From: Mariprofundaceae bacterium
GTDB lineage: Bacteria > Pseudomonadota > Zetaproteobacteria > Mariprofundales > Mariprofundaceae
NCBI GenBank assembly: GCA_030950925.1
Contig: JAUZQO010000023.1
Location: 1 to 34,363, forward strand
DNA length: 34,363 nt
Direction of reading: 5' to 3'
A model generated the notes under the pieces. That model was not told where the DNA came from. It saw only the letters and a list, made by a program, of their open reading frames with translations, and did not search any database. Shown here piece after piece: positions 27,660 through 34,363 of the stretch. How positions within the stretch are numbered: position 1 is the stretch's first letter; every line of letters begins with the position of its first letter. A program made the translations under genes and the position numbers.

Positions 27660-27836
27660 TCTTGATTTCCCAAGTATACCATAAAAATGAGGCTATATAA
27701 GACTCAAGCACATGTTTAAATAACCAAGTCTTAAACTTGGTTAAATACCCGATGAATTTTATCAAGTTTAGATTGTGTTGCGCTTTCAAAAAGCAGTTCT
27801 AGCCTGCCGTTTCATCAAAATAGAGAGGACTTCCCC
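27660..27836. promoter_or_regulatory. Divergent intergenic region with a perfect inverted repeat
   Basis: These 177 bp separate the DUF218 gene (-) from the cytochrome cluster (+), so promoters in both directions are expected. A perfect palindrome TAACCAAGT-CTTAA-ACTTGGTTA lies at 27721-27743. Its 9-bp arms and 5-nt loop fit a dimeric regulator's operator, and without a following T-run it is a poor terminator. A GAGAGGA sequence precedes ATG 27837. I cannot call -35/-10 boxes with confidence. Confidence 0.45.
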
Positions 27837-28571
27837 ATGTTACATTTCAGACGTTTTTCCGACACATCTGTCAGTGAAAAACTATTGGATTCCATGTTTT
27901 TAATCACGATTGGTATTGGATATTTATTTGCTTTACTTAACCTTTACTACACCGATCAAGGGCGAGATGGAGAACCTGGTTTATCGGTCAAAGATGTGAC
28001 ACTCGCATATTATGGAAGCCACAATCAAACGCGTTTGGGTGCTGCCATCAATGGCCCTATGGAACCCAACCTGCCCAATGCTGCTGCCAAAACCACCATT
28101 CTTGACTGGATTCAACATGGTGCTACCAAAGAAGAATTTGAAGCCAAGGTCAAGCCCATCATGCAAAGCAACTGTGTGATGTGTCATTCCGCAGCAAGCG
28201 GCATGAGCATCCCCCATTTTGATTCTTATGAACATGTCTTAGAACTCACTGCCACTGATACTGGGGCAACCATTCCAGCCTTGGTTCGTGTGTCCCATAT
28301 TCATTTGTTTGGCATTGCTTTTATTCTCTTCTTGATTGGTCGAATCTTCCTTTTATGTGAATTACCTGTATTGTTTAAACGCGTGGTGGTTGCCGCGCCC
28401 TTCGCTTTTCTTATTTTGGATATTAGTTCGTGGTATATTACGAAATTGATTCCTCAATTTGCTTATGTGGTGATTGCTATGGGTGCTTTTGTTGGTATTA
28501 CATTTGCTATTCAAATCTTTACCAGTCTTTATCAAATGTGGCTTTACAAGTCCAATAATGAGCAAGAATAG
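27837..28571 (+). CDS. Membrane protein with one covalently bound c-type haem, function unknown
   Basis: A 244-residue protein with a single CVMCH haem-binding motif at 113-117. A first hydrophobic segment (about 19-37) is followed by a soluble region of about 115 residues carrying the haem. Three more helices follow (about 155-175, 183-202 and 207-235). Since haem c is attached in the periplasm, the soluble loop should be periplasmic. His154 and His156 (RVSHIHLFG) sit at the membrane edge and could bind metal or haem. DYxxxDQGRDGEPGLSVKD-like text after the first helix and the phrase LAYYGSHNQTRLGAAINGPM are not motifs I can place in a named family. It heads a cytochrome cluster, so a role in quinone-cytochrome electron transfer is plausible but not shown. 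Confidence 0.75.
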   Translation: MLHFRRFSDTSVSEKLLDSMFLITIGIGYLFALLNLYYTDQGRDGEPGLSVKDVTLAYYGSHNQTRLGAAINGPMEPNLPNAAAKTTILDWIQHGATKEEFEAKVKPIMQSNCVMCHSAASGMSIPHFDSYEHVLELTATDTGATIPALVRVSHIHLFGIAFILFLIGRIFLLCELPVLFKRVVVAAPFAFLILDISSWYITKLIPQFAYVVIAMGAFVGITFAIQIFTSLYQMWLYKSNNEQE

Positions 28572-28663
28572 CTACACGTTATTTGGCTCTTTAACCCAAT
28601 CAGCCATGAGTGCTGTAAATTCGAGCATCTTTGATGTCTTCGTATCATAAAAAGGAGAACACA

Positions 28664-28963
28664 ATGAAAAAAATAATTTTAACATCCATGGCTTTGGCTT
28701 TCTTGGGTATGACATCAAGTGCTGCGATGGCATCAAGCGATATCAATGCCAAAAAGATTTTCAGCAAAAAATGTAAAATGTGTCATGCCTTGGATAGAAA
28801 AAAAGTAGGTCCATCTTTTAAAGACATGAATAAAGATGAAGCTGTGTTACTAAAAACCATCACCCATGGTCGTAAAATGATGCCAAAATTTAAGAAAAAA
28901 CTTTCCAGTGATGAAATCGCCGCTATGGTAAGCTTCATTCAAGCACAACAAGGTGCAAAATAG
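28664..28963 (+). CDS. Small periplasmic monohaem cytochrome c
   Basis: A 99-residue class I cytochrome. The signal peptide MKKIILTSMALAFLGMTSSA-AMA is probably cleaved after residue 23. The haem motif is CKMCH at 37-41, and the distal Met is Met72 or Met73 in HGRKMMPKF. The mature protein is about 76 residues and rich in Lys, so it is basic and suited to docking on acidic redox partners. The start at 28664 is set by AAGGAG 8 bp upstream; an in-frame extension to 28631 would precede the signal peptide. It lies between the membrane cytochrome and the trihaem protein, and is likely the mobile electron carrier between them, by inference. Confidence 0.93.
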   Translation: MKKIILTSMALAFLGMTSSAAMASSDINAKKIFSKKCKMCHALDRKKVGPSFKDMNKDEAVLLKTITHGRKMMPKFKKKLSSDEIAAMVSFIQAQQGAK

Positions 28964-28994
28964 GTTCTAACTTTTAAATAGGGAGGGGAGTTTC

Positions 28995-29813
28995 ATGTTT
29001 AAAAAGATATTGGTCACGGCAGCCTTAATTGCGCTGCCGATTTCCGTTGCTCAAGCATCGGATGATATGCCAGATGGTAAAAAGATTTACCAAAACAATT
29101 GCGCAAGCTGTCATGGTATGGATGGTACAATCAGTAAGTTTGGGAAAGATTTAAAACCATTTCCAGCGCGTAACCATCGTGCCATGGCTCAAGTTGTGAG
29201 TCGTGGTGAAATGCGTCGTATTATTACTTACGGTGTACGCGGAACAGGTATGCGCGCAAAAAAATATGATCTTAAGCCTTTGCAAATCGAAGCTGTGATT
29301 GATTATATCAAAACCTTTGATTATAAGTCCAACCTTGCCAATGGTAAAAAACGTTTTGAACAAGTCTGTTCGTCCTGTCATAGCATGGATGGACGTGCAA
29401 CAACGGGCTTGGGTGCTACCAACTTGGTGTATTCCAAGCTTAATTTAGAAGACATTGTTCATACGCTTCGGCACGGTCGTTCAGGCACATTAATGACAGC
29501 CAATGAGCACCAATTGAGTAACCCAGACATCAACGATGTCGCGCATTATGTTCTCTCCCTCCGTTATAAAGCCAATCTTAACAATGGTAAAAAACTGTAT
29601 GCTAAGCATTGCCAATCTTGCCATTCAAGCCCAAGTACGATCAAACTCTATGGCAATGCGGCTGGAAAAATGAAACTGGCTGATTTAAGCGATCAAATGC
29701 TTGATCTTCGTATTCGTCATGGTCGTCATATCCATCGTGCAGGCAAAGCGGTAGAAAAACTATCATCGGATGAAATTCTTGATCTCATGGCTTACGTTCG
29801 TAAAAATAGATAA
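28995..29813 (+). CDS. Periplasmic trihaem cytochrome c with three tandem domains
   Basis: A 272-residue secreted protein. A signal peptide (about 1-21, ending VAQA) is followed by three class I cytochrome domains of about 85 residues with motifs CASCH (36-40), CSSCH (125-129) and CQSCH (206-210). Each domain opens with a DGKK/NGKK-x-[YF]-x-x-x-C pattern, which suggests internal duplication. The distal Met is visible in domain 1 (GTGMRAK) and domain 2 (GTLMTAN). Domain 3 has GRHIHRAGKAV at that place and no Met, so its haem may be bis-His, otherwise ligated or open. GGGAGGGGAG precedes the ATG. It ends the cluster before the terminator. The substrate or partner is unknown. Confidence 0.92.
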   Translation: MFKKILVTAALIALPISVAQASDDMPDGKKIYQNNCASCHGMDGTISKFGKDLKPFPARNHRAMAQVVSRGEMRRIITYGVRGTGMRAKKYDLKPLQIEAVIDYIKTFDYKSNLANGKKRFEQVCSSCHSMDGRATTGLGATNLVYSKLNLEDIVHTLRHGRSGTLMTANEHQLSNPDINDVAHYVLSLRYKANLNNGKKLYAKHCQSCHSSPSTIKLYGNAAGKMKLADLSDQMLDLRIRHGRHIHRAGKAVEKLSSDEILDLMAYVRKNR

Positions 29814-29840
29814 TATTTTTCAATACTGAGAATAAAAAAA

Positions 29841-29867
29841 GGCTCCTAATGAAGGAGCCTTTTTTTT
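29841..29867. terminator. Rho-independent terminator, usable in both directions
   Basis: A stem of GGCTCCT and AGGAGCC with a 5-nt AATGA loop (29841-29859) is followed by eight T residues and preceded by seven A residues (29834-29840). It should end the cytochrome transcript on the plus strand and the gnd-zwf-pgl transcript arriving from the other side, since pgl stops at 29884. Confidence 0.92.
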
Positions 29868-33043: not shown

Positions 33044-34363
33044 TCAAGGTAACTTCCAACGCCATGAAAGAACCACTTCACCATTCATACGAAAATTATC
33101 TTGTGGCATACGGTTGAAGCCCCAGTTGGCATATTCAATATTAAAACTTCCTACTTGCCATTTGGAGCGACCAAAACCATAGGTCCAACTCCAGTCATTA
33201 CGATGAAATCGCTTATGCCAAGCAAATGATTTACCTATACCTGCTCTAGCAAACCAGCCATCGCCAAAATTGTATTGCCAATCACTGTGTAAAGCAGGGA
33301 TACCCTTGGAAAAGGAGAACGATACGTTGCTTTGGTAACGTTTGGGTAAGGCGATTAATTTCATCAAACTAAGGTTATAACCCAGCTTAAACTCCATGTT
33401 TTTAATGGTTGGCACCGTATTTAATGTTTTTGGAACCCATTGATTCCATCCCAATGAAAAACCACCTGGTCTCCAATCCGTATAACCCAAGCCCCATGTA
33501 TAGGTCGGAACTTTCGCGCCTCCGCCAGCCACAGGCATCGTTAGTCCACCTCGGATATAAAAATTCTTATAGGGTGACCATTGCCCATTGCTTGTGAAGC
33601 TATAACTATTATCTCTTAAGCGCCAACGTAACTGAACATCTCCTACCAAGCCCACATTGGGTCCTTTGGGCAAAGGAAAATTATCATAACCATGAATCAA
33701 CGAACGGGTAAAAAACATACCATCCGACATCAACTTCTCTGAAGACAGATCTTGAATATTCTCATGTTTTTCTTGTTTTTTAGCCAACGACTCAGCCCAA
33801 TGTAAGCCTTGCCTAACTGGGCGCTGAGTAAGGTTTACCGTCATTTTCAGTCCACGAGGTGATAAGCGCACACTTCCTTCGTCATGTTCTACACGCGGTA
33901 ATGCTGCCAGTTGAAGGCTGGTTTGACCCAGTCTTGGCATCAAAAAGTCTGAATCATATACCTTATGATATGCATTCGCTGCTGGAAGTGACCCACGAGA
34001 TCCCGTATGCATAGCTTGGTATTTCGAACTTGGCAAAAATGTTTTGGTGTGTTTTTTGATTGCTATTTTTTTCTTAAATTTAGTTTTTTTCGGCTTTACT
34101 TTCGGCTTTACTTTCGGTTTGACCTTTGTCTTTAGCTTCGTTTTTTGTTTTAGCTTCTTAGGCTCATCTTGCAACCACAAAACAGGATCTTTGGGGACAT
34201 GACGGTAAAATGTATCATAAGGAAGTGTTTCAGGGTCATAAAGTGTTTGACCATTCCATGGGTTTGGAAAACATTGTTTTCGCTCGACACGATAAAGAAA
34301 CTGGCGTTTGGAGCGCGCATCTAAATCGCTTTTTACTAAGAGTTCAGGGCGAATCCGATGCTT
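33044..34363 (-). CDS. Probable outer-membrane beta-barrel protein, C-terminal part (cut by window edge)
   Basis: The frame is open through 34363, so at least 439 codons are visible and the N-terminus is outside the window. The apparent start at 34180 is an internal TTG in LWLQDEPK. Upstream residues include FPNPWNGQTLYDPETLPYDT and then FYRHVPKDPV. A lysine-rich stretch follows (34050-34165, with three KVKP repeats). The last 250 residues are rich in Trp, Tyr and Gly with alternating polar/hydrophobic segments, such as TYTWGLGYTDWRPGGFSLGW and WSWTYGFGRSKWQVGSFNIE, as in outer-membrane barrels. Nothing here fixes a function. A resemblance to exopolysaccharide-secretion barrels of the YjbH or Wzi type is only an impression. 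It may precede gnd in the same transcript. Confidence 0.6.
   Translation of the reverse strand, partial: KHRIRPELLVKSDLDARSKRQFLYRVERKQCFPNPWNGQTLYDPETLPYDTFYRHVPKDPVLWLQDEPKKLKQKTKLKTKVKPKVKPKVKPKKTKFKKKIAIKKHTKTFLPSSKYQAMHTGSRGSLPAANAYHKVYDSDFLMPRLGQTSLQLAALPRVEHDEGSVRLSPRGLKMTVNLTQRPVRQGLHWAESLAKKQEKHENIQDLSSEKLMSDGMFFTRSLIHGYDNFPLPKGPNVGLVGDVQLRWRLRDNSYSFTSNGQWSPYKNFYIRGGLTMPVAGGGAKVPTYTWGLGYTDWRPGGFSLGWNQWVPKTLNTVPTIKNMEFKLGYNLSLMKLIALPKRYQSNVSFSFSKGIPALHSDWQYNFGDGWFARAGIGKSFAWHKRFHRNDWSWTYGFGRSKWQVGSFNIEYANWGFNRMPQDNFRMNGEVVLSWRWKLP
34089..34124 (+). repeat. Three 12-bp tandem repeats inside the barrel-protein gene
   Basis: Two perfect copies of TTCGGCTTTACT are followed by a diverged TTCGGTTTGACC. 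On the minus strand they encode three KVKP units of the lysine-rich segment. Being multiples of three, changes in copy number would keep the frame, so the linker length could vary between strains. Confidence 0.85.

Follow-up and report, generated by a model that had tools for sequence, protein, structure and literature searches.

Which proteins take up electrons from periplasmic carriers at the inner membrane of Zetaproteobacteria? Published work describes many unnamed, highly expressed periplasmic cytochromes and few inner-membrane partners (PMC7029218, PMC12442390), and at least 14 of these highly expressed, unnamed cytochromes were found in Zetaproteobacteria (PMC7029218). A 34,363-nucleotide stretch from a Mariprofundaceae (Zetaproteobacteria) genome (contig JAUZQO010000023.1, positions 1 to 34,363; here called the window) contains three neighbouring cytochrome c genes, the first of which encodes a membrane protein. 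The locus therefore raises the question of whether this protein belongs to a known respiratory system and, if not, which role it may have. We refer to the three gene products as MEM, MONO and TRI.

27660..27836, no strand: divergent intergenic region with the DUF218 gene (minus strand) on its left; presumed promoter
27837..28571, plus strand: MEM, inner-membrane monohaem cytochrome c, 244 aa (ORF, AF2, hydropathy, 66 homologues)
28664..28963, plus strand: MONO, small basic periplasmic class I monohaem cytochrome c, 99 aa (Cytochrome_CBB3)
28995..29813, plus strand: TRI, periplasmic trihaem cytochrome c with three tandem class I domains, 272 aa (Cytochrome_CBB3)
29834..29867, plus strand: intrinsic terminator directly 3' of the TRI gene (RNA fold −18.9 kcal/mol, z −5.1, T run)

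Organization of the locus

The open reading frames code for 244, 99 and 272 residues with one, one and three haem motifs, respectively, as a first-pass annotation of the DNA had described. MEM and MONO genes are 92 bases apart, MONO and TRI genes 31 bases. Given these short gaps and the strong terminator behind TRI, the trio most likely forms a single transcript. MONO was assigned to the ATG start behind AAGGAG, a longer TTG start at 28631 being less likely. In the region upstream of MEM, a scan for sigma-70 promoters performed no better than on shuffled sequences. Regulation by FNR/ANR was rejected: an imperfect FNR-like site (8/10) about 71 bp before the MEM start is common only to the nearest relative. 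The divergent intergenic region furthermore contains the palindrome AACCAAGTCTTAAACTTGGTT (window positions ~27723–27744), which is kept in the relatives L029 and L040 and has lost one arm in the closest relative, L028. Further downstream, on the minus strand (window 33044–34363), a lysine/proline-repeat stretch is followed by beta-rich-looking sequence with no Pfam match; the neighbouring genes resemble the oxidative pentose phosphate pathway.

The soluble proteins MONO and TRI are ordinary cytochromes c

MONO carries its CKMCH motif at residue 37, matches the Cytochrome_CBB3 profile (PF13442) at 1.5e-13 and is c6-like by PDB sequence. Its Met73 is invariant in 39 aligned rows. With a computed pI of 10.0, the mature protein is strongly basic, and MONO was thus rightly described as a small basic monohaem carrier. 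TRI is strongly basic as well (computed pI 9.7) and matches PF13442 in three stretches (7.1e-32), with haem motifs CASCH at 36, CSSCH at 125 and CQSCH at 206; by PDB sequence it is CcoP-like. Both proteins have signal peptides, as judged by eye.

In TRI, Met86 and Met167 are invariant (31 rows aligned). A conserved Met is missing from the third domain, where His242 and His245 are retained, the latter in 29/29 rows with a residue at this position; one TRI haem is therefore probably bis-His coordinated. Profile match, CXXCH motif and downstream Met ligand mark MONO and TRI as class I cytochromes c, with the third TRI domain lacking the conserved Met. Both may be among the unnamed periplasmic cytochromes reported earlier (PMC7029218). 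MONO and TRI are ordinary proteins, and the novelty of the cluster rests in MEM, which belongs to an unnamed family.

MEM represents an unnamed family of four-helix membrane cytochromes c

The first-pass annotation could not match MEM to any named respiratory complex, and wider searches led to the same result. No Pfam or NCBIfam family was found at cut-off and no PDB chain by sequence in single and profile searches; two fold searches of the PDB gave nothing with E below 3. No paper recognizable as a description of the trio or of the MEM family emerged from literature searches.

We modelled MEM twice with AF2, from an alignment of 29 homologues and from one of 43 (mean pLDDT 86.8 and 89.4). Four membrane helices were obtained (TM 12–40, 146–171, 178–204 and 206–235), in agreement with hydropathy. 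The only haem motif, C113-VM-CH117, lies within the 105-residue loop between TM1 and TM2. A basic N-terminus and a KR just after the 172–177 turn predict that this loop (residues 41–145) is outside, i.e., periplasmic. The four helices and the single CVMCH in a periplasmic loop noted earlier were thus reproduced, and so was the His-x-His at the membrane edge: His154-Ile-His156 is located in the first third of TM2, near its outer end. The cytoplasmic segments comprise only about 10 residues, and no cytoplasmic signalling domain is present.

Exactly one CXXCH was found in each of 66 distinct homologues (66/66), among which A32, Y58, G60, G73, M75, W91, C113, C116, H117, G143, L149, H154, I155, H156, P188, D195, W199 and G216 never varied. 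Haem is presumably attached covalently at the CXXCH motif, and Met75 is the better candidate for its sixth ligand. In the models, His154 and His156 at the start of TM2 and Asp195, Trp199 and Lys203 at the end of TM3 would be found on the same periplasmic side, under the haem loop. Binding of a membrane haem b by a bis-His pair was rejected, because the sole invariant membrane histidines are only two residues apart on one helix (TM2). We conclude from its sequence that MEM represents a family of inner-membrane cytochromes c with four helices that is uncharacterized and has no name.

Two distant relatives without haem motif (profile E 1e-7 and 2e-6) retain H154, H156, D195 and W199, and mostly K203.

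L089:4699–5364: haem-less MEM relative with motifs THAHLFGF and DI/DV.SWW
L111:7309–8163, minus strand: haem-less MEM relative with the same motifs

The His-x-His patch persists in these proteins and is thus a feature of the membrane core rather than of haem c binding alone. Both genes adjoin three cytochrome genes, two dihaem and one monohaem. This haem-less cluster is conserved in two gammaproteobacterial-type genomes and is possibly another undescribed cytochrome cluster.

When 398 genomes from the phylum were searched by profile, the MEM family turned up in 61/78 Zetaproteobacteria and in 3/320 other genomes; a sample of 200 genomes around a betaproteobacterial member yielded 15. In the family tree, the Zetaproteobacterial trio copies form one branch; another includes a Zetaproteobacterial [NiFe]-hydrogenase/hyp subgroup, and a further one is beta/gammaproteobacterial. 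Some genomes contain a second trio-branch MEM gene copy without soluble cytochromes (L112:6670–7461; L024). By eye, the copy in L112 sits behind an RND-type and P-type-ATPase-like gene.

The trio is conserved as a unit

The proposal that the three genes form a unit would have predicted that they stay together in relatives, and their positions are indeed not scattered. Counting distinct same-branch loci with enough DNA, we found the MONO gene directly behind the MEM gene, on the same strand and within 400 bp, in 36/40 cases, and the TRI gene behind MEM within 1.2 kb in 28/37. Part of these 28 were counted via a domain match starting at the MONO gene, and an intact TRI gene was seen there. In many Mariprofundaceae a HemN-like gene comes next (12/19 loci). 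Chance gene order was rejected in view of its conservation across 40 distinct relatives. Moreover, the genes up- and downstream vary between genera, which argues that the order is kept by selection and does not reflect short divergence. In some genomes the TRI gene is located elsewhere (e.g., G011, and G016 on another contig), and MEM and MONO therefore make up the firmer core. With MONO as the tighter companion, the minimal path formulated in the first-pass annotation may not always need TRI.

The host genome encodes markers of iron oxidation

Two different Cyc2-like fused cytochrome-porins are encoded in the genome from which the window originates.

L119:1420–2775 (own genome, C42): Cyc2-like, N-terminal motif AIPVFARKYGMACSSCH
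L120:1249–2607 (own genome, C32): Cyc2-like, N-terminal motif AIPAFARQTGAACLSCH

We take AIPAFARQTGAACLSCH to be the motif form known for Cyc2 and assigned one of the two cytochrome-porins on this ground. Haem-copper oxidase genes are present on contigs other than that of the trio, and the genome also encodes what is, judged by eye, a Rieske-like protein. Neither an MtrB/PioB porin (PF11854) nor a [NiFe] hydrogenase was found in this genome. From this set of markers the host appears to be an iron oxidizer. Another protein of the same genome (L058:55–1293, C73; 412 aa) has a monohaem cytochrome domain fused to an apparent YVTN-type beta-propeller.

MEM relatives occur beside hydrogenase and porin-cytochrome genes

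By coordinates, the hydrogenase-linked MEM copy lies within a [NiFe]-hydrogenase/hyp operon in 8/10 genomes with that branch; the other two are incomplete MAGs, and for 5/10 genomes the branch was assigned by score and position, not by tree. Seven of these eight genomes encode a full-length large subunit (E about 1e-210), the eighth only a shorter large-subunit-like protein (E 2e-60). Strong [NiFe] large subunits were found in 0/26 other genomes searched, where matches were weak only (E 1e-17 or worse). Within the operon the MEM copy sits among maturation genes, flanked by those for the chaperone HybE and for a HupK-like protein. Five loci of H2-oxidizer-type Zetaproteobacteria (L092, L096, L115, L116, L117) have this MEM paralogue branch in a hydrogenase maturation operon, with rubredoxin, HupH, HybE and HupK-like genes nearby. 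A HyaC-type cytochrome b is present as a separate gene in the same hydrogenase operons. On a plasmid of Sulfurovum mangrovi (Campylobacterota; L118:5764–6090, NZ_CP087125.1), an internally deleted MEM remnant is found between two [NiFe] hydrogenase gene sets, the single match in the plasmid collection.

In a Burkholderiales MAG (L045), the gene for a MEM relative stands in one run with genes for an MtrB/PioB porin (4e-148), an mtoA-like decahaem cytochrome and two class I cytochromes, one tetrahaem and one monohaem; a dihaem class I cytochrome comes after. This was the only genome among 12 searched with PF11854. Tetrahaem class I neighbours also accompany MEM relatives in L044 and L140. No cytochrome neighbours were found at several beta/gammaproteobacterial copies (L087, L088, L108, L143, L144, L145). 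With at least three contexts, i.e., the trio, [NiFe] hydrogenase and an mto-type porin-cytochrome cluster, MEM looks like a general membrane redox partner and not like a subunit of one three-protein complex.

Comparison with known electron transfer systems

MEM resembles CymA, NapC and NirT in being an inner-membrane c-type cytochrome with a periplasmic haem and a proposed link between carriers and membrane, and the relative in L045 is found beside mtoAB-like genes, where CymA would be expected. However, MEM has one haem, not four or more, and four helices instead of one. PF03264 (NapC/NirT/CymA) gave no match to MEM at E up to 1, nor was it among the families listed for 29 aligned members. 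The Mto pathway (MtoAB-MtoD-CymA/ImoA) is related to the MEM family through the same mtoA/mtoB-like cluster; in contrast, the window genome lacks the MtrB/PioB-type porin and the window cluster has no decahaem. HyaC/b561-type cytochromes b are, like MEM, four-helix membrane redox partners near hydrogenase, and one MEM branch shares their operons. They differ from MEM, which has a haem c motif in a loop and no bis-His pair on two helices, and PF01292 (cytochrome b561/HyaC) did not match MEM.

A further iron-oxidizer cluster, ircABCD (Slit_1321-1324 in Sideroxydans; grcIJ in Ghiorsea), is iron-responsive and encodes a dihaem, a monohaem, a hypothetical protein and a b-type cytochrome (PMC8788666, PMC10734462, PMC12442390). 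Similar to the trio, it combines periplasmic cytochromes with an inner-membrane protein, has no porin and stands for a hypothetical electron path from periplasm to membrane. Judged by the description of irc, the trio is set apart by haem counts of 1 (membrane), 1 and 3, no b-type protein and no Hsp33 neighbour; it may serve the same step. MONO in turn is comparable to periplasmic shuttles such as Cyc1, MtoD or c6-like cytochromes: a class I monohaem carrier, small, basic and ordinary in all but its linkage to MEM.

Proposed role of MEM in electron transfer

We propose that the membrane protein of the trio is probably an unrecognized port of entry for electrons at the cell membrane, which would exchange them with carriers in the periplasm. 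Electrons from outer-membrane oxidation of the Cyc2 type would be carried by the basic MONO, with TRI as a further carrier or a bridge between this oxidation and MEM. From MONO or TRI they would pass to the single, presumably covalent MEM haem, in the periplasmic loop atop the helix bundle. They could then be delivered to an adjacent respiratory complex or, most plausibly, to the quinone pool at the invariant His/Asp patch, i.e., in the uphill branch needed for NADH. Related MEM copies would have the same role as a port beside hydrogenase or MtoAB. Electron transfer among MEM, MONO and TRI, its direction and the use of quinone are all suggested by sequence and gene context. A membrane port is the simplest way to explain why MEM, whose one haem faces the periplasm, keeps turning up alongside different sources of periplasmic electrons. 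It draws support from the one CXXCH in all homologues, the invariant Met75, the persistent patch, synteny, the independent contexts and the Cyc2-like, haem-copper oxidase and Rieske-like genes of the host, and is weakened by the several beta/gammaproteobacterial homologues that stand alone without cytochrome neighbours. A single haem c is also unusual for a quinone-linked membrane cytochrome, which counts against a port. A quinone site would fit the invariant periplasmic patch of His, Asp and Trp but is not proven by it. We thus put the chances that MEM is a membrane redox partner of periplasmic carriers at about even, and regard a quinone step at MEM alone as doubtful. The full proposal, in which MEM would be a minimal cytochrome c:quinone oxidoreductase family that serves Fe(II), H2 and mineral oxidation and passes Fe(II) electrons to the quinone pool for reverse transport without CymA in Zetaproteobacteria, is, taken as a whole, decidedly unlikely.

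Other roles have to be weighed against the membrane port. The trio might carry Cyc2 electrons along a direct soluble path to the terminal oxidase or bc1, with MEM as a mere tether or docking haem without quinone chemistry. The CcoP-like sequence of TRI, the strongly basic character of both soluble cytochromes and the haem-copper oxidase and Rieske-like genes of the host would fit such a path. Yet a tether needs no invariant His-x-His/Asp/Trp patch that outlives loss of the haem domain, and oxidase genes and trio are on different contigs; we consider this path unlikely. Gene neighbourhood leads to a different idea: the HemN-like gene behind the trio in 12 of 19 loci makes a haem-supply role possible, and the position between HybE and the HupK-like protein an accessory one. 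MEM could accordingly be a sensor for redox state, oxygen or haem, or a maturation factor for haem or cytochromes, with these neighbours reflecting that function. This is improbable, as MEM has only its short cytoplasmic segments and no signalling domain there, and its closest companion is an electron carrier, not HemN.

In Zetaproteobacteria one branch is tightly linked to [NiFe] hydrogenase, and a deleted remnant lies between hydrogenase genes on the Sulfurovum plasmid. This might also indicate that MEM is an accessory protein of the hydrogenase type that the cytochrome cluster has recruited, e.g., an electron acceptor or oxygen-protection partner of various membrane dehydrogenases. However, MEM occurs without such a hydrogenase in the window genome and in most relatives, and the operons in question already contain a HyaC-type cytochrome b, which makes this role very improbable.

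As a membrane port, MEM would be one of the inner-membrane partners that are few in published work on periplasmic cytochromes. Present in 61 of 78 Zetaproteobacteria, accompanied by shuttles of its own and found repeatedly with hydrogenase and mto-type genes, MEM is a concrete, testable candidate for this position and a possible marker gene.
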